The notes under the pieces were generated by a model. The model saw nothing but the letters and a program-made list of their open reading frames with translations. It was not told the origin of the DNA and searched no databases. The translations under genes were made by a program, and so were the position numbers. From the NCBI GenBank assembly GCA_027886865.1, contig JAPCJR010000001.1, positions 101,369-165,368 of the forward strand: DNA of 64,000 bases. The letters run 5' to 3'. Each line of letters opens with the position of its first letter. The first letter of the stretch is position 1. Shown here in pieces: positions 3 to 60,214 of the stretch. The DNA comes from Nitrososphaerota archaeon (lineage in GTDB: Archaea > Thermoproteota > Nitrososphaeria > Nitrososphaerales > UBA183).

Positions 3-788
3 TCGATCAGGATTGGGCCTCTCGTTACTACACCTATCGGCGCGCGCTATCATCCCGCGATCGTCGCCCAGGCCAGCGCCACTCTGGACAACATGTACCC
101 CGGGAGGTTCCTTCTGGGTGTGGGTAGCGGTGAGGCGCTGAACGAACGGCCATTCTGGAACGGACGATGGCCTGAATGGGAGGAGAGGATGGAGAGGCTC
201 GTCGAGGGAGTCGAGCTGATAAGAAGGCTCTGGGACTCGGATCGTCCGTTCGCGTTCAAAGGCAAGTACTATTCTGCGGACTTTTACTACATGTACACCA
301 AACCGAAGAAGCGGATCCCGATCTACTTCTCGGCCGTCGGGAAGAGGGCCGCTTACAACGCAGGGCTCTGCGCCGACACGTTGGTCACGATCTGCCCGCG
401 CAACGACGAGGAGAGGTTCAGGGACGTCATTATTCCCGAGTTCAAGAAGGGTCTGAAGAAGGCGGGGAAGAGGAAGGGAGGGGTGCAGGCGCATGTCAGC
501 TTCACCTTTAAGGACCCCGCTCAGCTCAGAAAGGAGGCGCATGGCTCCCTCGGCTGGTTACGGAAGGACTCGTGGAGCATCAAAGACCCCATCGCCGTCG
601 AGAGCGCGGGGGAGAAGGTGACCGACGACGAATTGAGGAAAGGGATGCTCTTCTGTAAAGGCTGGCCGGACCTGGTCAAGGCCCTCCAGATCTACGTCGA
701 CGCAGGGGCGACCGAGATATGCCTTTCCTCCGGGGCGGACAAGGCGCAGATAAGACAGATCGGGGAGAACGTACTCTCTGTCTTCTGA
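3..788 (+). CDS. LLM-class (luciferase-like) F420/flavin-dependent oxidoreductase, 5' partial
   Basis: The reading frame is open from the left edge, so the N-terminus lies outside the window; the first internal ATG (93) is not the start because clear family sequence precedes it (GPLVTTPIGARYHP, then the DNMYPGRFLLGVGSGEALNE segment typical of F420-dependent glucose-6-phosphate dehydrogenase and methylene-H4MPT reductase relatives). These TIM-barrel enzymes move hydride between F420 (or FMN) and a substrate, in the cytoplasm. The substrate cannot be told from sequence. It is followed after 5 bases by the D-threonine-aldolase-like gene on the same strand, so the two are probably co-transcribed. 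Confidence 0.85.
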   Translation, partial: SIRIGPLVTTPIGARYHPAIVAQASATLDNMYPGRFLLGVGSGEALNERPFWNGRWPEWEERMERLVEGVELIRRLWDSDRPFAFKGKYYSADFYYMYTKPKKRIPIYFSAVGKRAAYNAGLCADTLVTICPRNDEERFRDVIIPEFKKGLKKAGKRKGGVQAHVSFTFKDPAQLRKEAHGSLGWLRKDSWSIKDPIAVESAGEKVTDDELRKGMLFCKGWPDLVKALQIYVDAGATEICLSSGADKAQIRQIGENVLSVF

Positions 789-793
789 GAGCG

Positions 794-1891
794 ATGACAA
801 TGAAAACAAGTGAATATGAAACGCCCGTACTCCTCCTTGACGTGGACGCGCTGGACCGGAACATAGCCCGGATGGGCGCGTTCTTCCACGGGAAGAAGGC
901 GACCCTGAGGCCTCACGTGAAGGTCCACAAGTCTCCGTGGCTCGCACTGAAGCAGATAGCGGCGGGAGCCGGCGGGATCACGTGCGCCAAGGTCAGCGAG
1001 GCCGAGGTGATGATGTCAGGAGGGGTGGATGACATAATGATCGCTAACGAGATAGTTGGCGAAGACAAGGTCAGGAGGCTGGTCAAGCTTGCCAACCTCT
1101 GCAAGCTCACCGTGGCGGTAGACGATCTCGAGAACGCGAGGCAGATCTCCTCATTCGCGTCTCAGGAGGGCTCAAACGTGCACGTGCTGGTCGACCTGAA
1201 CCTCAGCGGAGCGATCACCGGCATCCTCGACAGGACGGGCGTCCTACCCGGAAAGGAAGCGGTGACCCTCGCCCAGGATATCTCGAAGTTGCCGAACCTG
1301 AGGCTCAGCGGCGTGATTGGGTACGAAGGCTCTCTGGGCGCTTTTCCCGACGAGAAGTCCAAGGTAGAAGGAGGCAAGAAGGCCCTCGGTCTGCTCGTCC
1401 AGACCGCCGAAGCCATGTCGGCCTCCGGACTGAAGGTCGAAGTCGTGAGTTGCGGAGGAACGATGTCCTACAAGACGGCGGCCGACTTCCCGGGCATCAC
1501 CGAGGTGCAGGCCGGCGGGTATGTCTTCATGGACCTGGGCTACCGCAGGTCGGGCATCGACTTTGAGACGTCGCTCACGCTCCTGACGAGGGTGGTCAGC
1601 AGGCCGAGGGCGGACAAGGCGATCATAGACGCCGGCTTCAAGACCATAAGCGCCGAGTCTGGCCTTCCGGGAGTGAAAGGAAGAGACGACCTAGAGGTCA
1701 CGTTGCTCAACGCGGAACACGGTCACATGCGCGTGAAAGACCCGTCTCGCGGTCCGAGGAGGGCGGAGAGGCTGGAGCTTTTGCCTACGCACGCCGATAC
1801 GACGACCTGCCTTCACGACGAGTACGTCCTGGTCCGGCGCGGGGAGGTGGAAGGGACGGTGAAGGTCGCTGCGCGCGGGAAGCTTCAGTAG
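794..1891 (+). CDS. D-threonine aldolase / D-serine dehydratase-like PLP enzyme (DSD1 family)
   Basis: 365 residues, full length for the family. An alanine-racemase-type N-terminal barrel carries the PLP lysine in RPHVKVHK (Lys43); the C-terminal beta domain ends with a His-x-Asp pair (PTHADTTTC). D-threonine aldolases bind a divalent metal through His-x-Asp, whereas D-serine dehydratases use His-x-Cys, so aldolase-type chemistry (D-beta-hydroxy amino acid to glycine plus aldehyde) is favoured. ATG 794 is chosen because it closely follows the upstream stop; ATG 800 is possible. The last 107 bases are also read on the opposite strand by the neighbouring dehydrogenase. Confidence 0.82.
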   Translation: MTMKTSEYETPVLLLDVDALDRNIARMGAFFHGKKATLRPHVKVHKSPWLALKQIAAGAGGITCAKVSEAEVMMSGGVDDIMIANEIVGEDKVRRLVKLANLCKLTVAVDDLENARQISSFASQEGSNVHVLVDLNLSGAITGILDRTGVLPGKEAVTLAQDISKLPNLRLSGVIGYEGSLGAFPDEKSKVEGGKKALGLLVQTAEAMSASGLKVEVVSCGGTMSYKTAADFPGITEVQAGGYVFMDLGYRRSGIDFETSLTLLTRVVSRPRADKAIIDAGFKTISAESGLPGVKGRDDLEVTLLNAEHGHMRVKDPSRGPRRAERLELLPTHADTTTCLHDEYVLVRRGEVEGTVKVAARGKLQ

Positions 1892-2792
1892 GACCTCCGG
1901 AACGGATCTCATCGAGAAAGAGATAGAGCGCAGAGGTATCGTACTCCTCGTAGCCCAGTTCTACAGCCTTGGATATGTAGCGGCTGGCGAGCTCGGCGAG
2001 CGAGAGCTGCGCCCCGTCTTTCATGGCGCTCTCTAGTATGATTCCCAGGTCCTTCTTGAGGTTCCTCATCGAGGCTCCCCCCTTCAGTTCGCCGGAGATC
2101 ACGACCGAAGCGAAGTGACGGAAGACAGGTGAGTCGCCCCAGCTCATCGAGATTATCTTCTGGAGATCCTCTACCTTCATGCCCATCTTCTTGGCCCAGA
2201 GGTAGGCTTCGGTTATCCCTACGAAGTAGACTCCGACGAGCGCCTGATTGAAGAGTTTGACCCTCAACCCGGAGCCTGACCCGCCCAGATAGAAGATGTT
2301 CTTCCCCATCTTGGAGAGCACATCCCGACATTTCTCGAAAGCCCTCTGGTCACCACCCACCATTATCGAGAGGGTCCCGGCGGCGGCTCCTTCTGGGCCA
2401 CCGCTGACAGGGGCGTCGAGGAAGTACATCCCCTTGGTGCGGAGCTTCTCCGCCACATTAATCGCCGTGCCCGGATCTATGGTGCTGGTGTCTATCACGA
2501 TGCCACCCTTGGCGAGTCCGTGAACCAGCCCTTTCTTTCCCAGGACGACCGCCTCAACCGCTTTGGAGTCCAGGAGGGCTAGCACCACCGTCCTGCAGCT
2601 CCTTGCAAGCTCCTCCGGGGAGGCCGCCGCGATGGCACCCTCTCTGACAAGCTCCTCGACAGGTTGAGGGCTCCGGTTGTACACTACGACTTCGTACCCG
2701 GCCCGGAGCAGGTTCTTCGCCATCCTCTTTCCCATGACGCCGAGACCGACGAACCCTACCCTGGAGGGCCGCGGGCGGCTCAAAGCTTCCAA
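1785..2792 (-). CDS. NAD(P)-dependent beta-hydroxyacid dehydrogenase, 3-hydroxyisobutyrate dehydrogenase family
   Basis: N-terminal Rossmann motif GFVGLGVMGKRMAKNL, substrate segment DAPVSGGPEGAAAG, and the catalytic-lysine region (GSGSGLRVKLFNQAL) identify the beta-HAD family, which oxidises small 3-hydroxy acids such as 3-hydroxyisobutyrate or tartronate semialdehyde. The family core ends near FLDEIRSGG; about 35 further residues rich in Pro and Arg read through the 3' end of the opposing gene before a stop. A TATA-like box at about 2814-2826 puts the transcript start near 2795, so TTG 2792 (or 2783) is preferred over the upstream GTG 2807. Confidence 0.83.
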   Translation of the reverse strand: MEALSRPRPSRVGFVGLGVMGKRMAKNLLRAGYEVVVYNRSPQPVEELVREGAIAAASPEELARSCRTVVLALLDSKAVEAVVLGKKGLVHGLAKGGIVIDTSTIDPGTAINVAEKLRTKGMYFLDAPVSGGPEGAAAGTLSIMVGGDQRAFEKCRDVLSKMGKNIFYLGGSGSGLRVKLFNQALVGVYFVGITEAYLWAKKMGMKVEDLQKIISMSWGDSPVFRHFASVVISGELKGGASMRNLKKDLGIILESAMKDGAQLSLAELASRYISKAVELGYEEYDTSALYLFLDEIRSGGPTEASRAQRPSPSLPPPRAGPGRTRREGRSSYRRA

Positions 2793-2847
2793 ACGTCCTC
2801 CGAGCACGGCGATTGAGATTTAACTTTTCTAGAAATCGGTTGTTTTT

Positions 2848-2885
2848 GGGAGCCTTGAAGAAGCCGAGGCTTCTGCGCTGCTCCC
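2848..2885. other. Nested perfect inverted repeat in a divergent intergenic region
   Basis: GGGAGC (2848-2853) pairs with GCTCCC (2880-2885), and inside it AGAAGCC (2859-2865) pairs perfectly with GGCTTCT (2868-2874) around a two-base loop, with symmetric five-base internal loops. It lies upstream of both flanking promoters, so it is neither a terminator nor part of either predicted leader. It could be a protein-binding site or a short structured RNA. Nothing else was seen in 2808-3006 apart from the promoters. Confidence 0.5.
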
Positions 2886-3006
2886 AGACTTGGATTCATA
2901 CCGGGGATACTGTCAAATCTCTGTTGATATGGTGTTTCTCTCCGTGTCAGCCGGTATGCTTCTTGTATCCTATCTGCTTAACTAGGATTATGCAAGCATT
3001 CGCATC

Positions 3007-3474
3007 ATGGCCGAGAAGCAGCTGATAAAGACGGTCAACGTTGCGGCAAATCCCGATGAAGTCTGGGACGCATGGACCACCGTTGAGGGGATCAGGACGT
3101 TCTTCGCTCCCGATGCGCGGTTGGAACTCAGACCAGGCGGCCTCTACGAAATCTATTTCGACACTGAGCAGCCCGAGGGTCTAAAGGGGAGCGAGGGATG
3201 CAGAATCCTCAGCTTTGTCCCTTCGAGAATGCTATCGTTCACTTGGGGCGCGCCCCCGCGGTTTCCCCGGGCGCGCAGAGCGAACGCGCAATGGGTTGTG
3301 ATCTTCCTCGAGCCTTCGGGCGGAGGGACCAGCGTAACGCTAATCGAACTCGGCTGGGAGGATGGAGAGGAGAGCGATGCGGTCTACCGGTACTTTGACC
3401 GAGCATGGGCGACGGTCCTTGCACTCTTGGCGCGCAGCTTCTCAAGTGGACCCGTGGACTGGGCGAACCCGTAG
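3007..3474 (+). CDS. SRPBCC (START-like, AHSA1-type) domain protein
   Basis: 155 residues forming one hydrophobic-cavity fold: N-terminal strand IKTVNVAANPDEVWDAWTT, the WTT-helix, FFAPDARLELRPGGLYE and a C-terminal helix (WATVLALLARSF). Such proteins bind small hydrophobic ligands or act as Aha1-like chaperone partners; the ligand is unknown. ATG 3007 sits about 25 bases after an AT-rich TATA-like stretch (near 2977-2985), consistent with a leaderless message. Confidence 0.7.
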   Translation: MAEKQLIKTVNVAANPDEVWDAWTTVEGIRTFFAPDARLELRPGGLYEIYFDTEQPEGLKGSEGCRILSFVPSRMLSFTWGAPPRFPRARRANAQWVVIFLEPSGGGTSVTLIELGWEDGEESDAVYRYFDRAWATVLALLARSFSSGPVDWANP

Positions 3475-3539
3475 CAGGCCATGCGAATCATTCCGTCGAA
3501 TGACGCAAGATTCAGCTAGGCATCTGAAGAAAGGAGAAT

Positions 3540-4517
3540 CTACCGGGGGACGGGCGCCGCTTCTTCGAGCAGTTTTTCCGCTTTGAGGTCATCCCAGACC
3601 CCGTGCGGTATCTTCATCCTCAGGGAGCGAGCGTTGTCTTCGACCTCTTCCGGGGACCTGCTCCCGGGTATCACCGACGTGACCGCCGGGTTCGCGAGGA
3701 TGAACTGCAGTGCGGCGGCCTTGAGGGGAACCGAGTAACCATCACAGACTTTCTTGATCTTCCTCGCCTTCTCCACCAGCGCTGGAGGCGCGTTCTCGTA
3801 GTTGTATGTGACGCCCTTCTTCAGGTCAGAGGCAAGAATCCCGCTGTTGAACGGGCCGCCGATGATTATCCCTATCTCCGCGTCCTCGCAGAAGGGGATG
3901 AACTCTTCGAGCGCCCCCTGCTCGAGGAGCGTGTATCGTCCCGCGATAAGGAAACAGTCGAACTGGGCCTTCTTTGCCAGCTTCAACGCAGTCTCATAGC
4001 TGTTCAGGCCTGCTCCTATGGCCTTGGTCGCTCCCTTCTCCTTCAGCTTGGCGACTGCAGGCTGGGACTCCTTCAGGGCCTGCGGTATGTCGTCGTCGCA
4101 ATCGTGTATGAGGAGTATGTCCACGGAATCCAGCCGCAGCCTCTTCTTGCTGTCCTCGAAGGACTTGATTATCCCTGCGCCGCTGAAATCAAAGACCGGC
4201 TCGACCTTCGGGGCTCCCTTCCAGGGGGCCGGCCCCGAGTACGGTACGAGGACCCTCCCGACCTTCGTAGAGATCGTGAACTTGTTTCTTTTTACGCCAT
4301 CAAAGGCCGCTCCCATCCTCCTTTCGCTCTCGCCGCGCCCGTAGAGAGGTGCGGTGTCGACGTGCTCCATGCCCACCTCGAGGGCCTTCCGCACCGTCGC
4401 GACGGCGACCTCGTCCGAGACAGACTCGTACATGTGGCCCAACGCGCCGCCTCCGAGGCCGACTCTGCTAATCTCAAGCTTGGTAGCGCCTACGCGCGCC
4501 CTGCCAAAATCACTCAT
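3540..4517 (-). CDS. Aldo/keto reductase, D-threo-aldose 1-dehydrogenase-like
   Basis: 325-residue TIM-barrel oxidoreductase. The catalytic tetrad is visible: Asp and Tyr in DTAPLYGRGESE, Lys in STKVGR, and His in LLIHDCD. The C-terminal NADP-binding region reads VTSVIPGSRSPEEVEDN. The overall layout (VGRVLVPYSG insertion, FDFSGAGIIKSFEDSKKRL) resembles L-fucose/D-threo-aldose dehydrogenases, which oxidise sugars to lactones. It ends against the SRPBCC gene and is divergent from a second aldo/keto reductase. Confidence 0.83.
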   Translation of the reverse strand: MSDFGRARVGATKLEISRVGLGGGALGHMYESVSDEVAVATVRKALEVGMEHVDTAPLYGRGESERRMGAAFDGVKRNKFTISTKVGRVLVPYSGPAPWKGAPKVEPVFDFSGAGIIKSFEDSKKRLRLDSVDILLIHDCDDDIPQALKESQPAVAKLKEKGATKAIGAGLNSYETALKLAKKAQFDCFLIAGRYTLLEQGALEEFIPFCEDAEIGIIIGGPFNSGILASDLKKGVTYNYENAPPALVEKARKIKKVCDGYSVPLKAAALQFILANPAVTSVIPGSRSPEEVEDNARSLRMKIPHGVWDDLKAEKLLEEAAPVPR

Positions 4518-4627
4518 CGTAGGCCGGACCTAGCCCGCGGATAAATGAGTCTTTCCAGACCATTGAAACCGAAAATCCGTGTCTTAGGAACAAAACGCTG
4601 ATAGCGTGGACGTCTTCAGAGGATGGT

Positions 4628-5611
4628 ATGGAATACGTCAGACTCGGACAGGCAGGGGTCAAGGTCTCCAGAATCTGTCTGGGCTGCATGACATTCGGGA
4701 ACTCGGCCAACTGGATGGTCGAGCAGGAGGGCGCGGTCCCAGTGCTGAAGCGGGCGTGGGACCTTGGAATAAATTTCTATGACACGGCGAACGTCTACTC
4801 CCGCGGCAGGTCCGAGGAGATCCTTGGGAACTTCCTCAAGGGCTCGAGGGAGGACGCCGTCATCGCGACGAAAGTCTACAATACGATGGGCGATGGCGTC
4901 AACCAGCGGGGCCTCTCGAGCAAGCACATACACTGGCAGCTTGGTGAGTCCCTGAAGAGGCTGGGCACTGACTACATCGACCTCTACCAGACCCACAGAT
5001 GGGACTACGAGACACCCATCGCAGAAACGCTTGCGACCATGACCGAGCTCGTGAAAGGCGGCAGGGTCCGGTACATCGGTGCATCCAGTATGTGGGCCTG
5101 GCAGTTCGCTAAGGCGCTCCACACGAGCGACGTCAACGGATACGCGCGGTTCGTGAGCATGCAGAACCTGTACAACCTAATCTATCGCGAAGAAGAGAGG
5201 GAGATGAACCCGCTCTGTATGGACGAGAAGGTTGCGCTGATTCCTTGGAGCCCGACGGCCGCGGGAATCCTGTCTGGGAAGTACTTCGAGGACGGGAAGA
5301 TCGTAGTGGCGTCCAGCGCCAGCGGAAGGGTAGCCCCTGGGTCGATGGCTCACGAAAGGTACGTGGGGAAGGCTTCCAACGATGAGGTCGTCAAGAGGAC
5401 GAAGGAGCTAGCAGCGAACAAGGGAGCGACTCCTACGCAGGTGGCGATAGCGTGGCTGCTCTTCAAGGGTGCGACCTCACCTATCGTTGGGACGACCAAG
5501 GTCGAGCACCTCGAGGAGTTTGTGGGCTCGCTGGACGTCAAGGTGTCACCGGAGGACGCGAAGTACCTGGAGGAGCCTTACGTCCCGCAGCCGGTTACGG
5601 GGCACGAGTAG
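4628..5611 (+). CDS. Aldo/keto reductase (YajO/Tas-like)
   Basis: 327 residues. Tetrad residues: Asp and Tyr in FYDTANVYSRGRSEE, Lys in IATKVYN, His in LYQTHRWD; NADP-site segment SPIVGTTKVEHLEE. It belongs to the AKR branch that includes YajO and general aldehyde reductases; the substrate is not assignable. ATG 4628 begins the MEYVRLGQAGVKVS segment that matches the family start. Divergent from the aldo/keto reductase at 3540-4517 across about 110 bases; convergent with the S53 peptidase. Confidence 0.83.
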   Translation: MEYVRLGQAGVKVSRICLGCMTFGNSANWMVEQEGAVPVLKRAWDLGINFYDTANVYSRGRSEEILGNFLKGSREDAVIATKVYNTMGDGVNQRGLSSKHIHWQLGESLKRLGTDYIDLYQTHRWDYETPIAETLATMTELVKGGRVRYIGASSMWAWQFAKALHTSDVNGYARFVSMQNLYNLIYREEEREMNPLCMDEKVALIPWSPTAAGILSGKYFEDGKIVVASSASGRVAPGSMAHERYVGKASNDEVVKRTKELAANKGATPTQVAIAWLLFKGATSPIVGTTKVEHLEEFVGSLDVKVSPEDAKYLEEPYVPQPVTGHE

Positions 5612-5619
5612 AGGGTCGA

Positions 5620-7221
5620 TCAGCGTTTCGGGACTTTGCCGGCAGCACTCGGTGACAGCGCGGCGAGCAGTTTTGCCCCGTCCGGGCTTCCCCAGCCTGT
5701 GCAGGCGTCCCAGCCGGGGCCCGCACGATACGCGCCGTTGGTACCGGAGACTACATCGCGGAACGCCTGAGCGGATGCCTTCCCGTAGAGCAGCGGGTTG
5801 ATGAAGCCTGCCGGCTTCCCTATGCTCTGGTTGATCAATGCGAGCAGGCCCGTCCAGAGCGGCGCGACGGCGCTCGTCCCGCCGACCGTGGTCTGCTTTC
5901 CGTCAACCCGGATGCTGTAACCCGTCTGAGGGTCCGCGTCCCCCGAGACGTCGGGGACTCCCCGTCCGGTCTTCCCTCCGGGATTTGCGGAAGGTGGGAC
6001 GCCGGCGCCGGCCTGCCATGAGGGCGGCGGGAAGACGTCGCTGACGCCTCCTCCGGTCGCTCCGCCGTTGGGCAGGTCATCCCAAACGACCTGGTTCGTT
6101 ATCTTCCCACCACTGGCGCCTAGGTGGGTTCCCCCGCAGCCGACGGCATACTGTGAGGACGCCGGAAAGTCAACGTGAGCGAGACCGTCGCTGACACCGT
6201 CGGAAGAACCGCCATCGCCTGAGGCAACGCACACCGTAACTCCGAGCGCCGAGGCATCCTGGAGGGCCTGGTCGAGGGCCTTGATGCCCTGTGACGTCCA
6301 CTCGGACTCGGCACTGCCCCAGCTGATGGACACGACGGAGGGTTTCCCTCCGGGACCGTGCACGGCTGCATTGATCGCGTCCACGAAGCCGGCGTCCGTG
6401 TTGGGTGCGAAGTAGACGAGAATCTCCGTTTTGGGTGCTATCGTCCCCACGACTTCGATGTCGAGCAGGACCTCGCCGTCTGGGCCGTTCGAGTCCCCGG
6501 TGGGAGAGTTGGATGCGCCATCCACAGGCACCGAGGTCACCGAGGGGGGCGCAATCCCGAGATTGGAGCAGTATGCCTGGATATCCTTCAGCGAATACCC
6601 GCCGCCTAGCTCGACTATGCCGACCGACTGATCGGACCCGTCCAGCCCTGAGGGGAAATCATAGAGGCCGGCGACCTGGGGAGGGGTGTAGGATACGCCC
6701 CCGGAGATGGACGGGTTGAAGCGGATGTGTGCGCGCGCCTGCGGGCGATTGTCTAGCCCTAGCACCGCGCTCACAATCGGCGCGAGCTCGGCGGAGAGGT
6801 ATATCGCTCCGAGGCGGCCGCGATAGTTGCCCCTCTCCGGGTGCGTGTAACGGGATAGGCTCACGCCGAAAGCAGCGCTGAACTGCGCAATCGTGCCCGA
6901 CAGGATAACGGAGCGCTTCGCCGAGCTCTCCTGGAGGACCTTCAGGGAGGCGTCACGGGCGAAGTCGCTCACCTTCGCCAGCTCCTCCCGCGTCGACCCA
7001 AAGGTCGCAGCGAACTCCGACCTCGTCGGGGAGGAGCGGTCGCGCGGCAGCTGGGAGCCCAGCCGTGTCACCAGCGAAAGCTCTCTTTCTGGCGAGCGGG
7101 GCCGCAGCACCAGCGTGACGAGTATGCTCTCTTCTGGGTCGAGCCTTCCCGAGATGCGGGAGCCCGCCATCGGCTTGCGCTCGCTCCCCGTCAGGGGTAT
7201 GCGTGGAGCTGGGGTGGACAT
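5620..7221 (-). CDS. S53 family (sedolisin/kumamolisin-type) serine-carboxyl peptidase with propeptide
   Basis: 533 residues: an activation propeptide (about 25-165) followed by the subtilisin-like catalytic domain (about 175-530). The S53 residues are all present: Glu250 and Asp254 in the E-x3-D motif of GEVLLDIE, oxyanion Asp336 in ASGDGGS, nucleophile Ser450 in GGTSAVAPLW, and the C-terminal calcium site (FRDVVSGTNG, then GWDACTGWGSPDG). These are acid endopeptidases, self-activated by propeptide removal. No signal peptide is visible, although most relatives are exported, so the export route is unclear. Confidence 0.9.
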   Translation of the reverse strand: MSTPAPRIPLTGSERKPMAGSRISGRLDPEESILVTLVLRPRSPERELSLVTRLGSQLPRDRSSPTRSEFAATFGSTREELAKVSDFARDASLKVLQESSAKRSVILSGTIAQFSAAFGVSLSRYTHPERGNYRGRLGAIYLSAELAPIVSAVLGLDNRPQARAHIRFNPSISGGVSYTPPQVAGLYDFPSGLDGSDQSVGIVELGGGYSLKDIQAYCSNLGIAPPSVTSVPVDGASNSPTGDSNGPDGEVLLDIEVVGTIAPKTEILVYFAPNTDAGFVDAINAAVHGPGGKPSVVSISWGSAESEWTSQGIKALDQALQDASALGVTVCVASGDGGSSDGVSDGLAHVDFPASSQYAVGCGGTHLGASGGKITNQVVWDDLPNGGATGGGVSDVFPPPSWQAGAGVPPSANPGGKTGRGVPDVSGDADPQTGYSIRVDGKQTTVGGTSAVAPLWTGLLALINQSIGKPAGFINPLLYGKASAQAFRDVVSGTNGAYRAGPGWDACTGWGSPDGAKLLAALSPSAAGKVPKR

Positions 7222-11966: not shown

Positions 11967-12037
11967 CAGTACGCGCCTGCTCTCCTTTCATCTTAAGTCT
12001 TCTGAGCGAGAGCCGATCCCATCGAAGATTTGCTAAC

Positions 12038-12070
12038 GATTCGGGAACGATTATGGAAATCGGTTAAGTA
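12038..12070 (+). promoter_or_regulatory. Shared 33-bp promoter element, copy 1 (upstream of ABC exporter)
   Basis: Reads GATT, one base, GGGAAC, then ATTATGGAAAT and finally TTAAGTA. The same words recur at the same spacing at 16744-16776 (+) and 16631-16663 (-). Two GGRAA words 11-12 bases apart (about one helical turn) sit just before a TATA-like stretch, the layout of an activator or repressor site on an archaeal core promoter. Predicted transcript start is near 12093. Confidence 0.55.
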
Positions 12071-12118
12071 GCGTTGCGAGGGTCGAACTCCGAACAGAAG
12101 CTTTGCTCGCAGAGACTA

Positions 12119-12214
12119 ATGGACCACCGCACACGCATAGGTCTTCATGCCACAATTTCCTGCGCGAACACTTACGCTTCCAAGGCGGGAGACAGTAGAA
12201 TTTGTCCTCGATGA
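12119..12214 (+). CDS. Candidate 31-codon leader ORF
   Basis: An ATG-started frame in the leader of the ABC permease ends with TGA overlapping the permease start in an ATGA arrangement (12211-12214), the classic geometry for translational coupling. The encoded peptide is basic, has two cysteines and matches no family I know. It explains why the promoter element lies about 110 bases before the permease. It may be regulatory or chance. Confidence 0.3.
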   Translation: MDHRTRIGLHATISCANTYASKAGDSRICPR

Positions 12215-13464
12215 GCATGGCTTACCGGAGCTTGAGGCGGAGGAAAGTGAGGACCGCCCTTACCGTATCGGGTATCGTCACGGGCGTCGCGCTGATACTT
12301 GTGCTCTTTTCCCTTACCGCAGGAGCTTCGACTCAAACCAACGGACTGGTGAGGAGCCTTTCTCCGGCCCAGATAACGGTAACGAACTCGACCAGACCAA
12401 GCTTTCCCGGCGGTACGGGCGCTGGTGGTTTCCCAGGAGGAGGAGGCGCCGGCTTTGGAGGCGGTTTTGGAGGCTTCTTTACAGGCTCCGAAACGTTGAG
12501 CCAGTCCCTCGCAGATCAGATAGGAAACATAACAGGCGTCTACGCGGTTACCGCGCAGCTCTCAGTCACAGGATACGTGGGCGGAAGCAACGCATTCGTG
12601 TATGGAATCCAGCCCAGCACATACACTGAAGTGACCGGTGGACTCACCATAGTCGGCGGGACCATGCTCTCGTCCCCGTCTACGAGCTTCCAAGTCGTCC
12701 TAGGGCAGACGCTAGCTCAGAACCTGAACGCGGCGGTGGGATCCGTCGTCACAATCGGACAGAACAGCACAGGTGGAGAAGCTTTTACCGTTGCGGGAAT
12801 CTATTCTGCAGGGAACGCCTTCGAAGATAGGTCGGCCTACATCCCACTCTCCAGCGCCCAGAGCATATCGAATGATGCGGGCAAGGTCACCGACATTTAC
12901 GTCAAGGCGAACAGCGCCAGCTATGTCAGCACGATCGCTTCGGAGATAACGTCCTCTATTCCGGGTGTCAGCGCGCTGACCGCGAGCTCGGCTACGCTGT
13001 CTGCCTCTTCGCTCTCCGGGACGCTTACGACGTTCTTTACGGTCATAGGTCTCGCCGCCCTGCTCGCCGGAGGTTTCGGCGTCATCAACACCATGATGAT
13101 GTCGGCGACCGAGAGGACGCGTGAAATAGGGACGCTCCGTGCCATAGGCGCCAGGAAGAGCCAGGTGCTGAAGCTGTTCATCAGTGAGGCCTTCCTCATC
13201 GGGCTGATAGGCGGCGGTGCCGGGGTGCTGGTCGGAGTGGTCGTAGCTCTCGTGCTGCCCTCGTTCACCGGGGCTGCGAGCTCGACAGGCTTCGGAGGGA
13301 GGGGTGTCGGCGGCCTATTCGGCGGCGCTCTCACACCAACACTGACTCCTGAGATTATTCTGCTGAGCTTGGGTCTGGGGATCGCGGTCGGAGTCCTAGC
13401 AGGACTTTATCCCGCCTGGCGCGCGTCGAGGTTGGACCCGGTGGAGGCCTTGCGACATGTCTGA
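12211..13464 (+). CDS. ABC transporter permease, MacB/FtsX family
   Basis: About 417 residues with the MacB-like order: N-terminal membrane helix (ALTVSGIVTGVALILVLFSL), a large extracytoplasmic domain (about 45-270), then three helices, ending YPAWRASRLDPVEALRHV, the signature end of FtsX-type permeases. Such permeases work mechanically on extracytoplasmic substrates rather than as simple pores. A Gly-Phe-rich insert (about residues 65-95) in the outer domain is unusual. ATG 12211 is chosen over TTG 12202 because of the ATGA overlap with the leader ORF. The ATPase gene overlaps its end by eight bases. Confidence 0.85.
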   Translation: MSMAYRSLRRRKVRTALTVSGIVTGVALILVLFSLTAGASTQTNGLVRSLSPAQITVTNSTRPSFPGGTGAGGFPGGGGAGFGGGFGGFFTGSETLSQSLADQIGNITGVYAVTAQLSVTGYVGGSNAFVYGIQPSTYTEVTGGLTIVGGTMLSSPSTSFQVVLGQTLAQNLNAAVGSVVTIGQNSTGGEAFTVAGIYSAGNAFEDRSAYIPLSSAQSISNDAGKVTDIYVKANSASYVSTIASEITSSIPGVSALTASSATLSASSLSGTLTTFFTVIGLAALLAGGFGVINTMMMSATERTREIGTLRAIGARKSQVLKLFISEAFLIGLIGGGAGVLVGVVVALVLPSFTGAASSTGFGGRGVGGLFGGALTPTLTPEIILLSLGLGIAVGVLAGLYPAWRASRLDPVEALRHV

Positions 13465-14266
13465 GAGCGGCTCCTCAGCGCCAGTCGTCCAGGCCATAGC
13501 GGTCACAAAGCAATACAAGCATGGACACATCCATGTCGACTCCCGAAGGAGCGATGCTCGACCTGCGAAAGAGCGGGTCCGGTTCGTCCCAGCTCTGAAT
13601 GGGATAGACTTGACAGTGGCAAAAGGCGAGATTATCGGTATAGTCGGGCCGTCGGGGTCGGGAAAGACCACGCTACTAAACATGATTGGTGGCCTTGACA
13701 GACCGTCGCACGGGCAAGTCCTGGTAGACAACGTCGACCTGACGACGTTCAACGACGATCAGCTTGCCGACTATAGACTGCGGAAGATTGGGTTCATCTT
13801 CCAATTCTACAACTTGATACCCACTTTGACCGCGCTAGAGAATGTCGAGCTTCCTATGAACCTGGCCGGCGTGCCAAAACAGGAGCAAGAGACTCGCGCC
13901 GTCGAACTTCTGCGGATTGTGGGTCTGGAGTCTAGAGTGGACCATATGCCAGTTGAAATGAGCGGCGGAGAGCAGCAAAGAGTCGCGGTGGCAAGGGCGC
14001 TCGCGAATAATCCGTCAGTGATACTGGGGGACGAACCGACCGGCGACCTGGACTCCAAGTCCGCCGAGGCGTTAATGGACCTTATTGTGTCCCTACGCAA
14101 AGACAGGAAGATGACATTCATCCTGGTCACCCACGACCCGCTTGTTGTGATAGAGTGCGACCGCGTCTATTCCGTGAGGGATGGAAAGGTACTACGTATG
14201 CAAACCAAGGCGGAGAACAGGAAGAACATCGGCGATGAAAGATCGATGCTCAACAAGCTGTACTGA
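13457..14266 (+). CDS. ABC transporter ATP-binding protein, MacB/LolD type
   Basis: 269 residues: Walker A GPSGSGKTTLL, Q-loop region FIFQFYNLIPTLTALENVELP (LolD/MacB hallmark), signature MSGGEQQRVAVARALA, Walker B VILGDEPTGDLD and the switch His in LVTHDP. It powers the permease encoded just upstream, with which it overlaps by eight bases. An extra basic stretch between residues 22 and 45 (HVDSRRSDARPAKERVR) interrupts the usual N-terminal strand region; its role is unknown. Confidence 0.9.
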   Translation: MSESGSSAPVVQAIAVTKQYKHGHIHVDSRRSDARPAKERVRFVPALNGIDLTVAKGEIIGIVGPSGSGKTTLLNMIGGLDRPSHGQVLVDNVDLTTFNDDQLADYRLRKIGFIFQFYNLIPTLTALENVELPMNLAGVPKQEQETRAVELLRIVGLESRVDHMPVEMSGGEQQRVAVARALANNPSVILGDEPTGDLDSKSAEALMDLIVSLRKDRKMTFILVTHDPLVVIECDRVYSVRDGKVLRMQTKAENRKNIGDERSMLNKLY

Positions 14267-14413
14267 AGGCCCGCGCAGTTAACCCCTTCCGGATACGAAT
14301 TGTGCCGGATGCCCAGGATCTCGTAGAACATCTTGAGAAAGAGACCCGCGGCTGCAGGGAACGAATCGTCAAGGGTACCTACGAAGGCTCAAGTCGCGCT
14401 GGTGAGACTTTGG

Positions 14414-14875
14414 TTATTCCAAGCTGAGATACAGGAAGATTGTGTAGGCGCAGATCGTGACAAAATCCGCGGCGAAACTCGAGTATCCGGGTCCGGGCAG
14501 TGACACCTGCCCGATGAAGCTGTCGGTGACCGGGTATGAAACCAGCGCCTGGAGGAGGAGCGCGCTCAGCACTACCACGAGGCCGAGCGCGAAATTAGCC
14601 TTCGTCTCGGCATATAACTTGCAGTAGATTACGACAAGCGCGATGAGCAGCGCCACTTCCACGGTCGTCAGGATAACATGGTACTCAAAGAGCGGGTTTG
14701 TGGGAAACGGGTGGAAGTAACCGAACGGCCCACCGCCGAACTGCGAGGGGGGCTGTGTCGGCGTCGCTAGTGAAATCGCTTCGCCGGCCACGAGGCCGAC
14801 GAGGAGCACCACAAGCACCCACACCTTCTGGAGGTAGGACCGCTTCTGCGGGATAGGTCCTTCACTTGCGGTCAT
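14414..14875 (-). CDS. Four-helix membrane protein of unknown function
   Basis: 153 residues with hydrophobic segments at about 17-37, 68-85, 93-112 and 130-150; the first loop is rich in Pro, Gly and Phe. No family recognised. It lies three bases after the stop of a winged-helix regulator, so the two form an operon, a frequent archaeal pairing in which a membrane protein and a small DNA-binding protein are co-expressed. Possibly a sensor or partner for that regulator (inference). The 14267-14413 stretch holds nothing recognisable. Confidence 0.6.
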   Translation of the reverse strand: MTASEGPIPQKRSYLQKVWVLVVLLVGLVAGEAISLATPTQPPSQFGGGPFGYFHPFPTNPLFEYHVILTTVEVALLIALVVIYCKLYAETKANFALGLVVVLSALLLQALVSYPVTDSFIGQVSLPGPGYSSFAADFVTICAYTIFLYLSLE

Positions 14876-14878
14876 GGG

Positions 14879-15265
14879 TTATCCTCCGGCCCCACTCTTC
14901 ATCCCCTTGTTTCTCTTCAATATAGCCTCAAGCTTGTCCCAGTGCGCCTCCATGTTCTCCGACACGAAATAGACCTTACCGTACTTGTCCCCTTCGGTGA
15001 GTACCAGCCGGTTCGATTCTAGCACCTTGAGATGGTGTCGGACGGTCGTGTAGTCGACGTGGAGCGCTAGGCACAGTTGCTGCGCATTCCTAGGCTCCTT
15101 TCGGATGCTGAAAAGGACCAGGGCCCTCGTTCGCGCTCCTGCGCTCCCGGCGAAGAGCCACCATAGGAGCCGCTCGAAGGAGTCCATCGTGAAGCTGGTC
15201 GCGGCGCCTATCAATAATTCTATCGAAGCCGGTTTCCCCAGGGCGCTCGCGCTGCGTCTGTTCAT
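14879..15265 (-). CDS. ArsR-like winged-helix transcription regulator
   Basis: 128 residues. The winged helix reads RTRALVLFSIRKEPRNAQQLCLALHVDYTTVRHHLKVLESNRLV with the wing GDKYGKVYFVSE. The recognition helix DYTTVRHHLKVLE is typical of archaeal ArsR-type repressors. Family similarity starts at MDSFERLLWWLFAG (ATG 15187), so the first 26 residues may be untranslated. Co-transcribed with the downstream membrane protein; target unknown. Confidence 0.75.
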   Translation of the reverse strand: MNRRSASALGKPASIELLIGAATSFTMDSFERLLWWLFAGSAGARTRALVLFSIRKEPRNAQQLCLALHVDYTTVRHHLKVLESNRLVLTEGDKYGKVYFVSENMEAHWDKLEAILKRNKGMKSGAGG

Positions 15266-15285
15266 GGATACCAGCGGTCACCAGT

Positions 15286-16584
15286 CTATGCCGCAGGCCT
15301 AGTCCCAAGCGTGAGATCGACCGTCGTCAGCTGGCCCGACCTGATTATTCCCAGCTGGACCATCTGGCCGGCGACGGTATACTCCTCGAGATAGCTCGAG
15401 AGCGCGTCCCCGTTGATTATCTTCGTTCCGTTGATGGAGATGATTATGTCGCCTCCGACGAGGTACTGCGCGCCATCGGCCGTGACGGTGGTGGTGCCTG
15501 CCTTGAGGCCGGCGGTGGCTGCGGGGCCGCCGCTCACGACATCCTCGATGAGAACGCCGTATGTCACGTTGGTATCAGAGTCTTGTGCGAGCTGGTAGTT
15601 CATATCGGCCGTCTCAATGCCGAGATACGCGTGTCCGTCATAGGTCCCGGTGGTTATCAGCGACGGCATCTCCTTGAGGATGGTGCTCGAGGGTATTGCG
15701 AAGCCGATTCCCTCTGAACCGTTAACCGTGGCCGTGGTTATGCCTATCACGTCCCCATTCTCGTTCAGTAGTGGTCCTCCGGAGTTGCCGGGGTTTATCG
15801 GGGCGCTGAACTGGATGATGTCGGAGATTGAGAAGCCGTTCGTGGTCGCCTCTTCTATCGTCCTTCCGAGCTGGCTCACGATTCCAAAGGTTATGGACCC
15901 TGATAGGCCGTACGGGTTACCGATTACCACGACGGGTTGTCCCACGGCGACGTTATTCGAGGAGACCAGTTGGAGCGGTACGAATTCCCTGGTAGGTGCG
16001 GTCGGAACCGTTACTATGGCTAGGTCGCTGTAGACGTCGCTGCCGATGACCTTGACCGGATATGAGTCACCGTCAGCGAAGGTGGCAGTAATGTTGCTGA
16101 CTCCATTGACGACGTGATCATTCGTCACGATGTAGTACCGGTTAGAGTACAGAGTCACGAATCCGGAACCCAGGACCGTCTCGACCCCAGATTCCGTGCC
16201 GAAGAGACCGGCAGCCGAAACTAGCTCTGTGCCCTGTATCGTTACCACGCTAGCGTTGTCGACTGCGTAGATCTGCTCGGCGTTGATTGATTGAGATATG
16301 GAGCTGTTTCCCTGTGACGTTGTAGAGACAGCGGCGAGCTGAGACTGAAGTTCGTTGTTGGTGGCCTGCAGGCTGGATACGGAACTCTGCAGGCTACTGA
16401 TGGTCGCGCTGCTCGCGCTGTTACTGGTCGCCGCCGCCTGCGCGAAGTACACCAAACCGGAACCGAGAATCAGGGCCACGACTACCAAGGTAACTACAAT
16501 CTTGCGGCTTCCCGAAGGAACGTTCTGCTCAGGGGTCGTCTGCATGCGAATCCAACCGACTAGCTCGCTTCTCTCCGCCGACAT
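15286..16584 (-). CDS. Membrane-anchored HtrA/DegP-like serine protease with PDZ domain
   Basis: 432 residues from ATG 16584: one membrane helix (KIVVTLVVVALILGSGLVYF, about 25-45), a Ser/Leu/Gln coiled-coil stalk, a trypsin-like protease domain with His in IVTNDHVV, Asp in YSDLAIV and Ser in NPGNSGGPLL, and a C-terminal PDZ domain. It should face the outside of the cell and degrade or refold damaged envelope proteins. ATG 16584 is preferred over the longer frame (to 16722) because the TATA-like box at about 16631-16638 puts transcription start near 16607. Confidence 0.9.
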   Translation of the reverse strand: MSAERSELVGWIRMQTTPEQNVPSGSRKIVVTLVVVALILGSGLVYFAQAAATSNSASSATISSLQSSVSSLQATNNELQSQLAAVSTTSQGNSSISQSINAEQIYAVDNASVVTIQGTELVSAAGLFGTESGVETVLGSGFVTLYSNRYYIVTNDHVVNGVSNITATFADGDSYPVKVIGSDVYSDLAIVTVPTAPTREFVPLQLVSSNNVAVGQPVVVIGNPYGLSGSITFGIVSQLGRTIEEATTNGFSISDIIQFSAPINPGNSGGPLLNENGDVIGITTATVNGSEGIGFAIPSSTILKEMPSLITTGTYDGHAYLGIETADMNYQLAQDSDTNVTYGVLIEDVVSGGPAATAGLKAGTTTVTADGAQYLVGGDIIISINGTKIINGDALSSYLEEYTVAGQMVQLGIIRSGQLTTVDLTLGTRPAA

Positions 16585-16630
16585 CCGGACCGGAGGTTCT
16601 GAGACATGGCTACCGAGGCGCAACTGATGA

Positions 16631-16663
16631 TATTTAGGAACTTTCCCGAATGGTTCCCAAATC
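16631..16663 (-). promoter_or_regulatory. Shared 33-bp promoter element, copy 2 (upstream of HtrA)
   Basis: On the minus strand it reads GATTTGGGAACCATTCGGGA followed by AAG, then a TATA-like CTAAATA. It matches copy 1 at 23 of 33 positions with no gaps. The two GGGAA words are 11 bases apart. The element ends about 25 bases before the predicted HtrA transcript start. Confidence 0.55.
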
Positions 16664-16743
16664 TTTAGAGAATCTATCGGTGCGGCGCTGCCTGCAATAA
16701 GCCGAACTGCACCGGCAATCAAATCCGGCGGGGATTCACTAAC

Positions 16744-16776
16744 GATTAAGGGTGAATTATGGAAATTGGCTAATTA
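16744..16776 (+). promoter_or_regulatory. Shared 33-bp promoter element, copy 3 (upstream of secreted Ser/Thr-rich protein)
   Basis: Reads GATTAAGGG, then AATTATGGAAATTGG, then TAATTA. The CTAACGATT start and the TTATGGAAATYGGYTAA block are shared with copy 1 at identical spacing. Copies 2 and 3 lie back to back in the 16585-16817 intergenic region, so one regulator could control both divergent genes. Confidence 0.55.
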
Positions 16777-16817: not shown

Positions 16818-17075
16818 ATGAGTCTCAAACTCAGCACAGACAGAAGGAGCGTCCTAATCGCGTCAGTAGTGACAATCGCAATCCTCGCAGCCCTTTCGTC
16901 CCTCACGTTCGCAGCGGCCCAGACAAACTCAACGTCAACTTCCAGCACGGCATCTTCGAGCGGCACCGGTCAGCCCACATCTTCCGGCACTTCTGGCAAC
17001 TGTCCCAACATGTCAAGTAGCGGAACTAGCTCAGGAGCTAGCTCGACATCCAGCGGGACGACAGCGTCCACTTAG
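16818..17075 (+). CDS. Small secreted or membrane-anchored Ser/Thr-rich protein
   Basis: 85 residues: a basic N-terminus, one hydrophobic segment (VLIASVVTIAILAALSSLTFA, about 12-32), then about 50 residues that are almost only Ser, Thr and Gly with one Cys-Pro. It looks like a signal peptide or anchor followed by an O-glycosylatable stalk. ATG 16818 is chosen over the earlier in-frame start (16752) because a strong ribosome-binding site GGAGGTGA lies at 16802-16809, one of few clear Shine-Dalgarno sequences here. Shares its promoter element with HtrA. Confidence 0.65.
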   Translation: MSLKLSTDRRSVLIASVVTIAILAALSSLTFAAAQTNSTSTSSTASSSGTGQPTSSGTSGNCPNMSSSGTSSGASSTSSGTTAST

Positions 17076-57445: not shown

Positions 57446-60214
57446 TTGGGAACCGATGAAAGGGAGGGCCGGTTCAGGTTCGGCCGCATAACAGCCTGGT
57501 TTCTCTTAGCGGTAATAGCCGTAATCATAGTTCTCTCCATCGCATGGGTCATCCTCGAGTGGTCGATTGCCGAGTACGTCTACTCGACCAAAGCGGGTCT
57601 GGACTGGTTTAGCATCACTTTCTATCACGACTATCTGTTCATCGCCGCCGGGCTCTTCGCGCTGCTCCTGATCAACCCCAAGGTGGGACAGAGCGACCTT
57701 TTGCGGCTCATCAGCGCGATTGGCCGGGGCGTTCGAAGACGAGATTTAGAGTATGAGTCTGTGCCGGCGGAGACCCCCAAGACTGGCGGGAGGGTGATGG
57801 GCAAGTGGCTCTGGGCCCTCTGGCAGACGCTCAAATGGGCGCTGGGATTCTACTTGTTCGTGGGCATCCACGGCTTCCCGCTGCTGGGGGAGATCATGAA
57901 TCCGATCATGATGGCGACCATGGGGCTGGGAAGCTGGACGGAGGTCCCGCGGGTATTCCTCCTGCCGCTGTTCCCGGCCTCGGGGCAGGATCTTGTCCAG
58001 CTCATGCCTTCGATGCAGATTCAGTACAACGTGCTCTCGTACGCCGTCTCCGCTTTCCTGCTCGTGTTCGCCATTCGAATGATCATGCGGATTGGCGCAA
58101 ATCTCACGACGAGGAGGAGCGATGTGTGGCTGAAGGAGTTATTGGCGCTTGCCGCTGCCATAGTGGCCAGCGTCCTTCTCGGAGCTCCTTATTGGCTGAT
58201 GAACATATCGACACCGTACGCGTATGGATTCACCTGGGTGGTCTTCCTCCTGATGATAGTGGGCATAGGATATGTCTCCCAGAGGAGGAACCTGCTGGCG
58301 AGGAGGGTCTATATCTTCAAGGGGCTCGCCGTGGTGCTTGCGGTCCTCCTGGTGGTCTCCACGGGGGCCGGCATCTACCTGTACGCAAATTGGAACAACA
58401 ACTACCTGTCATACCAGTGGACCCCGCAGACGCAAAAGGAAATCACCGTCACGCGATGGGCGGCCGGCCTTAACAACATCCAGGTCAGCAATATCACGGA
58501 CCTTCCCACCAGCAACCCGTCCACCACGTTGAATCTCGTCAGGCAGTGGGACCAGTCGTCCGCCACGGTCACGAACACCAAGGAGATAGGAGCTTACAAC
58601 TGGATGGGTCTTGCGAGCTCGGAGATAGTATTCTACAACAACACGGAGTACTGGGTCTCGCCGACCACCCCCACCTTCCCGTCGACGGACTGGATCAGCG
58701 AGCACCTGATCTACACGCACGCAGCCAAGGTCCTAGTGATAAACACGCACACCGGTTCGGTGATAAACGCGACTACCGCCTTCGGAGTCCCCACCGAGCC
58801 TCTGATCTATTACGGTGAAGGAGCAGGCTTCAACCAGAGCGTGTACGTGCACGTTCCGGGCTACGACGAGGTCCAGAATGTCTCCTACCCGGGAGCCCCT
58901 GACTATGTCCTGAGCGGCTGGCAGAAGTCATTGTGGTTCACCTTCGCCGAGGGACAGCTCGGTTTCGCCTTCTCGAGCCGCTCGATCGACATGCTCTGGA
59001 ACAGGAACATCGTCAACAGGGTCGGAGACATACTCATCCCGGGTCTCACCACGGACCCCGCAGCCTACATCGTCTCGGACGGAAAGAACCTGTACTACGC
59101 TGTCCAGGTCTACATAGATTCTCCGCTGCAGTCAAGCTTCTCGGCCAGTCCCTACCTGAGGTTCTTCGGCGTGGTCCTGGTAAACATTCAGGACGGGTCG
59201 ATGCAGGGTTACACCGTTTCCAGCCTTATGGGCGGGACCAACAGCAGCGACTTCCTCACGCAGTACTACCAGAACTATTACAGTAGCTGGCACGCTCCTC
59301 CCGCGTGGTTGGTGTCGCAGATACGCTACCCGGAGCAGCTCCTCGGGACCCCCACCGTCTCCGGTCAGCTCGACTATGACTTCACTTACCACGTTAGCGA
59401 CCCGTTCGTCTTCAGGTCGGGGACCCAGTTTTACGAGAGACCGGCGAACAACACGGTACAGTATATCCCGTTCGCCGTCGGGAACGAGGTGAACTTCGTA
59501 GGGTTGCAGCTGGTGCAGTATCAGGGCGCCGTGAGTAAGAACCTCGCGGGCATGTATGTCGCCTATGGAGGAGACAAGCTCGGGCAGATAGTTCTTTATC
59601 AGAACCCGTCAGCCTCGACGCCGATAATCGGGCCCTCTGCGGCAGAGAACGCCCTCAACACCAACAGTCAGGTGAGGACCCAGCTCACCCTCCTGCCCAA
59701 CAACCGGATCGGTTCATATCTCCTTTACTCGGTTGGCGGGGTGCTCACGTACTTCGTCGCCGTGTACACGAACCCTGGCACGTCAGGAGTAGTCACGCAA
59801 CTGGCCTTCATGACCTCTGTCAATCCAAACACCGGGACTGTCGCAGTCGGGCCGAACGCCGCAGTAGCATTCCAGAACCTGGGGGTGAGCAGTCAGTCCC
59901 AGGTATCGACGTCAGACAAGGGTACTACGCTCCACCAAATCGACGGTCTCATCTCCTCGGAGGGTTACAACCTCGTCAACGCCACCTCTGTCAACCCCAC
60001 GGTCTGGATAAACGTCGGTATGGTCTCCTTCAGCGGCGCGGGCGCCAACGCGACCATCGCGCAGGTGCAGGGTCTGCTGCAACAATACGGACCTGGAAGC
60101 GTGGCTAAGACGGTCTACGAATGGGTGGACAGCTCTGGGAACATCAACTTCGGAGTGATAGTAGCGACAGGCCAGGCCGTCACCGAGCTCTACTACGTAA
60201 CGATCACGCCGTGA
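57446..60214 (+). CDS. UPF0182 (COG1615) family large membrane protein
   Basis: 922 residues: seven membrane helices (first ITAWFLLAVIAVIIVLSIAW, last VYIFKGLAVVLAVLLVVSTGAG near 290-320), then an outer domain of about 600 residues with WISEHLIYTHA, GAPDYVLSGWQ and SDPFVFRSGTQFYERP, which fit the family. UPF0182 proteins are widespread in Actinobacteria, Cyanobacteria and some archaea, with unknown function. The TTG start lies 25-30 bases after AGCTAAATAGC (about 57412-57422). Confidence 0.82.
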   Translation: MGTDEREGRFRFGRITAWFLLAVIAVIIVLSIAWVILEWSIAEYVYSTKAGLDWFSITFYHDYLFIAAGLFALLLINPKVGQSDLLRLISAIGRGVRRRDLEYESVPAETPKTGGRVMGKWLWALWQTLKWALGFYLFVGIHGFPLLGEIMNPIMMATMGLGSWTEVPRVFLLPLFPASGQDLVQLMPSMQIQYNVLSYAVSAFLLVFAIRMIMRIGANLTTRRSDVWLKELLALAAAIVASVLLGAPYWLMNISTPYAYGFTWVVFLLMIVGIGYVSQRRNLLARRVYIFKGLAVVLAVLLVVSTGAGIYLYANWNNNYLSYQWTPQTQKEITVTRWAAGLNNIQVSNITDLPTSNPSTTLNLVRQWDQSSATVTNTKEIGAYNWMGLASSEIVFYNNTEYWVSPTTPTFPSTDWISEHLIYTHAAKVLVINTHTGSVINATTAFGVPTEPLIYYGEGAGFNQSVYVHVPGYDEVQNVSYPGAPDYVLSGWQKSLWFTFAEGQLGFAFSSRSIDMLWNRNIVNRVGDILIPGLTTDPAAYIVSDGKNLYYAVQVYIDSPLQSSFSASPYLRFFGVVLVNIQDGSMQGYTVSSLMGGTNSSDFLTQYYQNYYSSWHAPPAWLVSQIRYPEQLLGTPTVSGQLDYDFTYHVSDPFVFRSGTQFYERPANNTVQYIPFAVGNEVNFVGLQLVQYQGAVSKNLAGMYVAYGGDKLGQIVLYQNPSASTPIIGPSAAENALNTNSQVRTQLTLLPNNRIGSYLLYSVGGVLTYFVAVYTNPGTSGVVTQLAFMTSVNPNTGTVAVGPNAAVAFQNLGVSSQSQVSTSDKGTTLHQIDGLISSEGYNLVNATSVNPTVWINVGMVSFSGAGANATIAQVQGLLQQYGPGSVAKTVYEWVDSSGNINFGVIVATGQAVTELYYVTITP

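Follow-up and report, generated by a model that had tools for sequence, protein, structure and literature searches.

A three-copy 44-bp promoter module and a candidate envelope regulon in a Nitrososphaerota archaeon

We analysed a stretch of 64,000 nucleotides (nt) of contig JAPCJR010000001.1 from a Nitrososphaerota archaeon, here called the window, in which one promoter module of 44 base pairs (bp) occurs three times. The first copy precedes genes for a MacB/FtsX-type exporter, the second a gene for an HtrA-like protease followed by genes for an ArsR-like winged-helix (wHTH) protein and a small membrane protein, and the third a gene for a Ser/Thr-rich protein. A preliminary account drawn from the letters of the DNA (the sequence-only reading) had placed a shared element before three envelope genes; the element does stand before the exporter, HtrA and secreted-protein genes, but the number was too low, as six genes in three transcription units follow it. 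We consider it likely that these three units share one local regulon.

Structure and support of the promoter module

Each copy consists of three 11-bp units in the same direction, approximately GATTnnGGAAm, and a fourth block that holds a TATA-like box (Table 1). The three copies lie where the sequence-only reading had put them, on the same strands, and its match of 23/33 positions between copies 1 and 2 is borne out (copies 1 and 3 agree at 24/33, copies 2 and 3 at 21/33). The 33-bp element that it described is real but too short, having missed the first unit, GATTYNCTAAM, which occupies the 11 bp upstream of it; the GGG that it saw at +6 to +8 is present in copies 1 and 2, whereas in copy 3 those positions read AGG and the GGG lies at +7 to +9. 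Direction is the same, and the register to the TATA-like box exact to the base, in 3/3 copies. GGAAA of unit 3 falls at the position of the transcription factor B (TFB) recognition element (BRE), and in all three window copies the array thus forms a site directly upstream of BRE and TATA in fixed register, with TATA-like boxes inferred from sequence.

The likeness of the copies is confined to the module. Across all three, 27/44 columns are invariant, against 4/44 in the upstream and 3/44 in the downstream flank, which gives the module sharp edges, and the chance expectation of such a triple is about 1e-6. The 33-bp part taken by itself has a likeness within chance, since by a simple binomial for 64 kb and both strands some 618 pairs matching at 23/33 and some 3.6 triples with 19/33 three-way identities would arise by chance. 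With leave-one-out position weight matrices, the copies score 42.7, 35.5 and 40.1; the runners-up elsewhere in the window reach 15.4, 14.1 and 13.7, and the largest values in 200 Markov-1 simulated windows are 19.3, 20.9 and 18.8. Similarly, even when three mismatches are allowed, the pattern GATTN7GATTNNGGN4ATTNNGGAAA has no match in the window beyond the three module sites, which it fits with 0 mismatches (shuffle mean 0.03). We therefore regard the 44-bp element as real, as surely as sequence alone allows.

Self-similarity of the three 60-bp regions is greatest at a shift of 11 bp (58/147), a value reached at that shift in 2/2000 column shuffles. In each of the three units, the variable columns gather at positions 5 and 6; a pair of neighbouring positions that varies in every unit arose in 424/100000 permutations, and the overall concentration was reached in 1478/100000. 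No conserved dyad beyond chance was found in the element, the best one being matched by 1709/2000 column shuffles, and an inverted-repeat operator was rejected on that ground. Given the 11-bp phase, the unit-wise constraint and the missing dyad, the pattern reads as one of phased tandem half-sites and not as a palindrome. A direct-repeat operator in 11-bp phase is a mark of the OmpR/PhoB type of regulator, and the module has this arrangement.

From the end of the module to the next ATG there are 48, 46 and 41 nt for copies 1, 2 and 3, counted to a possible leader open reading frame (ORF) for copy 1 and to the upstream HtrA start for copy 2. Elsewhere in the window, TATA-like boxes often end about 20–30 nt before the start codon, as judged by eye in upstream regions, and in comparison the three module promoters may have short leaders and the others none. 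The leader ORF, of 31 amino acids (aa), begins at about the same distance from its module as the other two genes from theirs and might thus be translated.

Genes behind the module and the candidate regulator

Table 1. Positions of the module copies, their parts and the genes that follow them (window coordinates)
Feature	Position	Strand	Details or basis
Copy 1, whole module	12027-12070	+	units GATTTGCTAAC GATTCGGGAAC GATTATGGAAA, fourth block TCGGTTAAGTA
Copy 1, unit array	12027..12059	+	three 11-bp units GATTTGCTAAC GATTCGGGAAC GATTATGGAAA
Copy 1, TATA-like box	12063..12070	+	GTTAAGTA; predicted from sequence
Possible 31-aa leader ORF	12119..12214	+	ORF only; TGA overlaps permease ATG at 12211 (ATGA)
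MacB/FtsX-type permease	12211..13464 (alternative TTG start 12202)	+	PF12704, PF02687
Exporter ABC ATPase	13457..14266	+	PF00005
Small membrane protein	14414..14875	-	PF26119 by protein-database annotation; four main helices in model
ArsR-like winged-helix (wHTH) protein, candidate regulator	14879..15265	-	PF01022 and structure model
HtrA-like protease with PDZ domain	15286..16584 (second possible start 16545)	-	PF13365, PF13180
Copy 2, TATA-like box	16631..16638	-	CCTAAATA; predicted from sequence
Copy 2, unit array	16642..16674	-	GATTCTCTAAA GATTTGGGAAC CATTCGGGAAA
Copy 2, whole module	16674-16631	-	units GATTCTCTAAA GATTTGGGAAC CATTCGGGAAA, fourth block GTTCCTAAATA
Copy 3, whole module	16733-16776	+	units GATTCACTAAC GATTAAGGGTG AATTATGGAAA, fourth block TTGGCTAATTA
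Copy 3, unit array	16733..16765	+	GATTCACTAAC GATTAAGGGTG AATTATGGAAA
Copy 3, TATA-like box	16769..16776	+	GCTAATTA; predicted from sequence
85-aa Ser/Thr-rich protein, export-like N-terminus	16818..17075	+	translation

The exporter genes, whose frames overlap by 8 bp, encode the MacB_PCD and FtsX domains together with an ATP-binding cassette (ABC) ATPase that characterise the MacB type (PF12704, PF02687 and PF00005), and they remain below the NCBIfam cut-offs for MacB (80.9 vs 966 bits) and LolCE (112.3 vs 362.45). The protease combines trypsin-like and PDZ domains with conserved His, Asp and Ser, as do enzymes of the HtrA/DegP type; H144, D174 and S255, which we take to be the catalytic triad of HtrA, are invariant in 15 aligned sequences. 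It scores 227.8 bits against the cut-off of 416.2 for HtrA TIGR02037, and equivalogs tested likewise fall under their NCBIfam cut-offs. Of its two possible starts, the upstream one is retained in the near relative P0239. The wHTH gene follows 20 bp after HtrA and the membrane-protein gene 3 bp after wHTH, and the three likely form an operon; as its second gene, the candidate regulator, which the sequence-only reading had already proposed, would probably stand under its own element.

The wHTH protein, 128 aa long, belongs with the ArsR-type helix-turn-helix (HTH) proteins by PF01022 (30.5 bits, above the cut-off of 22). Its structure model, with a mean predicted local distance difference test score (pLDDT) of 79.5, most resembles CzrA and SmtB, and PadR- and MarR-type chains come equally close. 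The ArsR metal-sensor signature NF033788 is missed (24.5 bits vs a cut-off of 55), and an alignment of 28 relatives has no cysteine among its invariant columns; the stretch DSFERLLWWLFAGSAGA is invariant across the same 28. Pfam gave HTH families only, and a receiver domain was not found. The protein has 511 relatives at E <= 0.001, and those with an organism name, a minority of the matches listed, are assigned to Nitrososphaerota, Nitrososphaerales or Thaumarchaeota. We regard it as a plausible reader of the array.

The membrane protein had no family in a direct Pfam search, despite its PF26119 database label, and its model (mean pLDDT 72) had no match in the PDB by Foldseek below E 2.2. Its alignment ends in SLE or SLD in nearly all of 34 sequences. 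For the 85-aa Ser/Thr-rich protein, no Pfam family was found at E <= 0.001.

The HtrA, wHTH and membrane-protein genes appear to keep company in other genomes. As a proxy for co-occurrence, in which gene order was not read, we counted equal lengths of the longest contig between clusters of relatives, comparing the matches listed, which are 120/511 for wHTH and 120/7997 for HtrA, with 117/118 carrying a length for the membrane protein. Among these matches, 22 lengths are shared by wHTH and membrane protein, 8 by wHTH and HtrA, 10 by membrane protein and HtrA and 3 by all three; controls with lengths shifted by 1–40 gave, for the pairs in the same order, on average 2.4, 0.74 and 0.83 and at most 6, 3 and 3. 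Source labels agree for 21/22, 8/8 and 10/10 of the shared lengths, respectively. In 15 of the 22 wHTH/membrane-protein cases (14 with agreeing sources) the length is at most 3,050 bases, and the two genes are thus close neighbours there. By this measure, relatives of the three proteins share contigs in other Nitrososphaerota and constitute a conserved gene set. A protein search of genome contigs with HtrA gave 42 loci, all of them bacterial to judge by their titles.

As for the rest of the window, no Rfam family was found in it at gathering score and no transfer RNA by ARAGORN. A protease gene at 5620-7221 (-) has a pro-kumamolisin activation domain (PF09286); proteases of this type usually work in acid, and the gene hints at an acidic habitat. 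An ORF of 922 aa at 57446-60214 (+) has a strong codon signal and no Pfam family at E <= 0.001.

A similar module on a distant contig

A search of a viral collection with the HtrA alignment gave 27 loci; separate searches of that collection for the wHTH protein, the membrane protein and the permease gave no relatives. The locus examined closely, L045, is an 11.8-kb contig whose HtrA is 49% identical to that of the window (167/343) and, judged by this HtrA, is probably archaeal. The HtrA gene lies 23 bp behind an ORF that resembles the end of the window ATPase (31% over 58 residues) and that has no ABC family in Pfam at E <= 0.001; it is followed by a gene with an export-like N-terminus. When 71 loci (857,449 bases) were scanned with the 44-bp matrix, the top match was L045:2069-2112, GATTAGGGATT GAGTCTGGTGT AATTCTGGAAA ACGGTTTAATA, which ends 37 nt upstream of the ATG of the export-like gene. 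With a locus-specific background, L045 comes first under three scores (18.9 vs 14.0, 16.7 vs 13.3 and 22.7 vs 11.1). Simulated versions of L045 reached the real score in 3/10000 cases for the 44-bp matrix and 0/10000 for the unit array with TATA block, and simulations of all 71 loci reached it in 4/40 and 0/40. We take the likeness of this site to the window module to be fairly strong, though not proof.

A loosened repeat pattern also matched L075, antisense within an ORF, which we set aside as chance, and L076, which is the whole contig of L045; as the pattern was built to include L045, the latter match is no independent evidence. Two further features of this contig were noted by eye. Behind HtrA, L045:1590-1757 looks like a partial repeat of the sequence for the HtrA C-terminus (a tblastn match extended to 1748). 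L076 also has a terminase-like gene at 86-1306 (-) and, at 2184-5759 (-), a gene for a 1191-aa repeat-rich secreted protein, and with these the contig that carries the module may be the edge of an archaeal provirus.

Predicted mechanism, alternatives and known systems

The explanation that we tentatively prefer is that the three promoters belong to a local envelope regulon under autoregulation, with tandemly bound wHTH protein aiding TFB and the TATA-binding protein (TBP) at each of them. The most likely regulator would be the wHTH protein encoded in the HtrA operon, and the membrane protein would serve as its sensor or tether. Fixed direction, 11-bp phase and exact TATA register, seen at three promoters, or four with L045, suggest tandem binding on one DNA face and contact with the basal machinery: the wHTH protein would bind the units head-to-tail, beside or over the BRE position, and once bound would recruit TFB/TBP. 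The membrane protein may signal trouble outside the membrane, upon which the wHTH protein would raise expression of the operon that encodes it and of both other units. The 'envelope stress' role is a guess from gene content.

Several observations weigh against this explanation. ArsR-type dimers usually bind palindromes, and the module, itself only a putative operator of the wHTH protein, has no palindromic operator of the ArsR/SmtB kind. The periodicity is modest, as the best of shifts 5–22 reaches 58/147 in 31/2000 shuffles, and the overlap of unit 3 with the BRE position would also suit a repressor. With the window background, the lead of the L045 site is thin (21.7 vs 21.4 for the next), and its 33-bp repeat part alone scores 14.7, outside the top four; the L045 record, itself a fragment, yielded no relative of the wHTH protein. 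Binding and control are, moreover, themselves predictions.

The close rival, though in our view on the unlikely side, is that the wHTH protein acts the opposite way, covering array and BRE, blocking TFB and releasing the promoters under stress, its own operon being autorepressed. ArsR-family proteins are, it is true, mostly repressors. GGAAA of unit 3 also fits the Pyrococcus BRE consensus VRAAA (PMC5937170; here and below we draw on the accessible parts of the papers cited), and for the Sulfolobus protein Stf76, whose site overlaps the BRE, the authors read negative control as suggested (PMC4027180). For a simple block of TFB, however, the two further upstream units in fixed direction and phase would not be needed.

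Quite unlikely, in our view, is a reader encoded elsewhere, whether an unlinked regulator or a special TFB that would recognise the array as an extended BRE, the wHTH protein acting at other sites. Nitrososphaerota have several TFBs, a tandem reading of the OmpR/PhoB kind suits direct repeats better than the usual ArsR dimer does, and L045 joins a similar module to the lack of a wHTH relative in its record. Against such a reader, one of the elements heads the operon that holds the wHTH gene, and this gene co-occurs with those for HtrA and the membrane protein. That the promoter segments were duplicated without shared control, or are alike by chance, is very improbable: the copies lie within 5 kb and their 33-bp likeness alone would allow it, but the 44-bp triple is hardly ever expected, identity ends at the module edges, divergence tracks the unit positions and L045 has a similar module.

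Among known systems, the reading of 11-bp direct repeats by a wHTH protein has precedents in Stf76, for archaea, and in PhoP. Stf76, a 76-aa winged-helix protein of the Sulfolobus plasmid-virus pSSVx, binds TTAA-N7-TTAA direct repeats in its own promoter (PMC4027180). It shares with our candidate the small archaeal winged-helix make-up and the 11-bp-phase direct repeat; unlike it, it is a plasmid-virus gene with another motif and other genes, and its likeness to the window protein is by description only. The winged-helix domains of PhoP, of the OmpR/PhoB type, bind 7-bp direct repeats with 4-bp spacers head-to-tail, and arrays of three and of four motifs are bound more tightly than pairs (PMC4832192). 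The 11-bp phase of the repeats is the same here, whereas that type is bacterial, reads another motif and has a receiver domain. In Nitrososphaera viennensis, genes downregulated by copper, some of them for surface proteins, share the promoter motif RATTTAAABATAGATTTAAATAATAAS (PMC7785015). As we read it, this is a GATT-headed direct repeat like ours, from the same phylum and likewise near surface-protein genes; it differs in its phase of 12 bp, also by our own reading, in its AT-rich core and in its other genes, and the accessible text names no regulator for it.

For the direction of control, a close parallel is TFB-RF1 of Pyrococcus furiosus, which is co-transcribed with a hypothetical gene. 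From the palindrome TCTG-N5-CAGA, placed immediately ahead of BRE and TATA at promoters with a weak BRE, it activates both the operon that encodes it and an operon for an ABC exporter (PMC5937170). A candidate regulator in its own operon, an ABC exporter unit and a site upstream of BRE/TATA recur in the window, where, unlike in that system, the site is a direct-repeat array and HtrA is among the genes (the accessible text on TFB-RF1 mentions none). With this precedent for activation by TFB recruitment, we slightly favour activation over repression. In gene content, a close counterpart is the CiaR regulon of Streptococcus, which includes the serine protease gene htrA and has the direct repeat TTTAAG-N5-TTTAAG in 11-bp phase (PMC3091779). 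Both systems thus have 11-bp-phase direct repeats in the promoters of a regulon with htrA; CiaR belongs to a bacterial two-component system of the OmpR type, with two units at a sigma-factor promoter, whereas the module has three units at an archaeal TATA-type promoter and a candidate reader without a receiver domain.

Among the titles and abstract openings of the matches listed from the open-access literature, with subscription journals mostly outside it, we found no archaeal HtrA regulon and no mention of this element. The kind of system is known from bacteria, and no report of its archaeal version was found among those matches. The control of envelope damage in bacteria is textbook knowledge, while to our knowledge little is known of the ways in which archaea perceive damage done outside their membrane. 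The gene set, conserved as it appears, the precise DNA code and the two further target units make regulator, operator and regulon directly testable. Should the array indeed be read by the wHTH protein, this would also be a case of an ArsR-fold protein that acts on direct repeats. In its widest form, which we consider doubtful, the system would be an archaeal counterpart of the bacterial envelope-stress regulons built of other parts: from a conserved operon for HtrA, wHTH and membrane protein, a small one-domain ArsR-fold protein, controlled by its membrane partner, would read triple 11-bp direct repeats head-to-tail, a code that would be common to Nitrososphaerota and the distant lineage of L045 and hence old.

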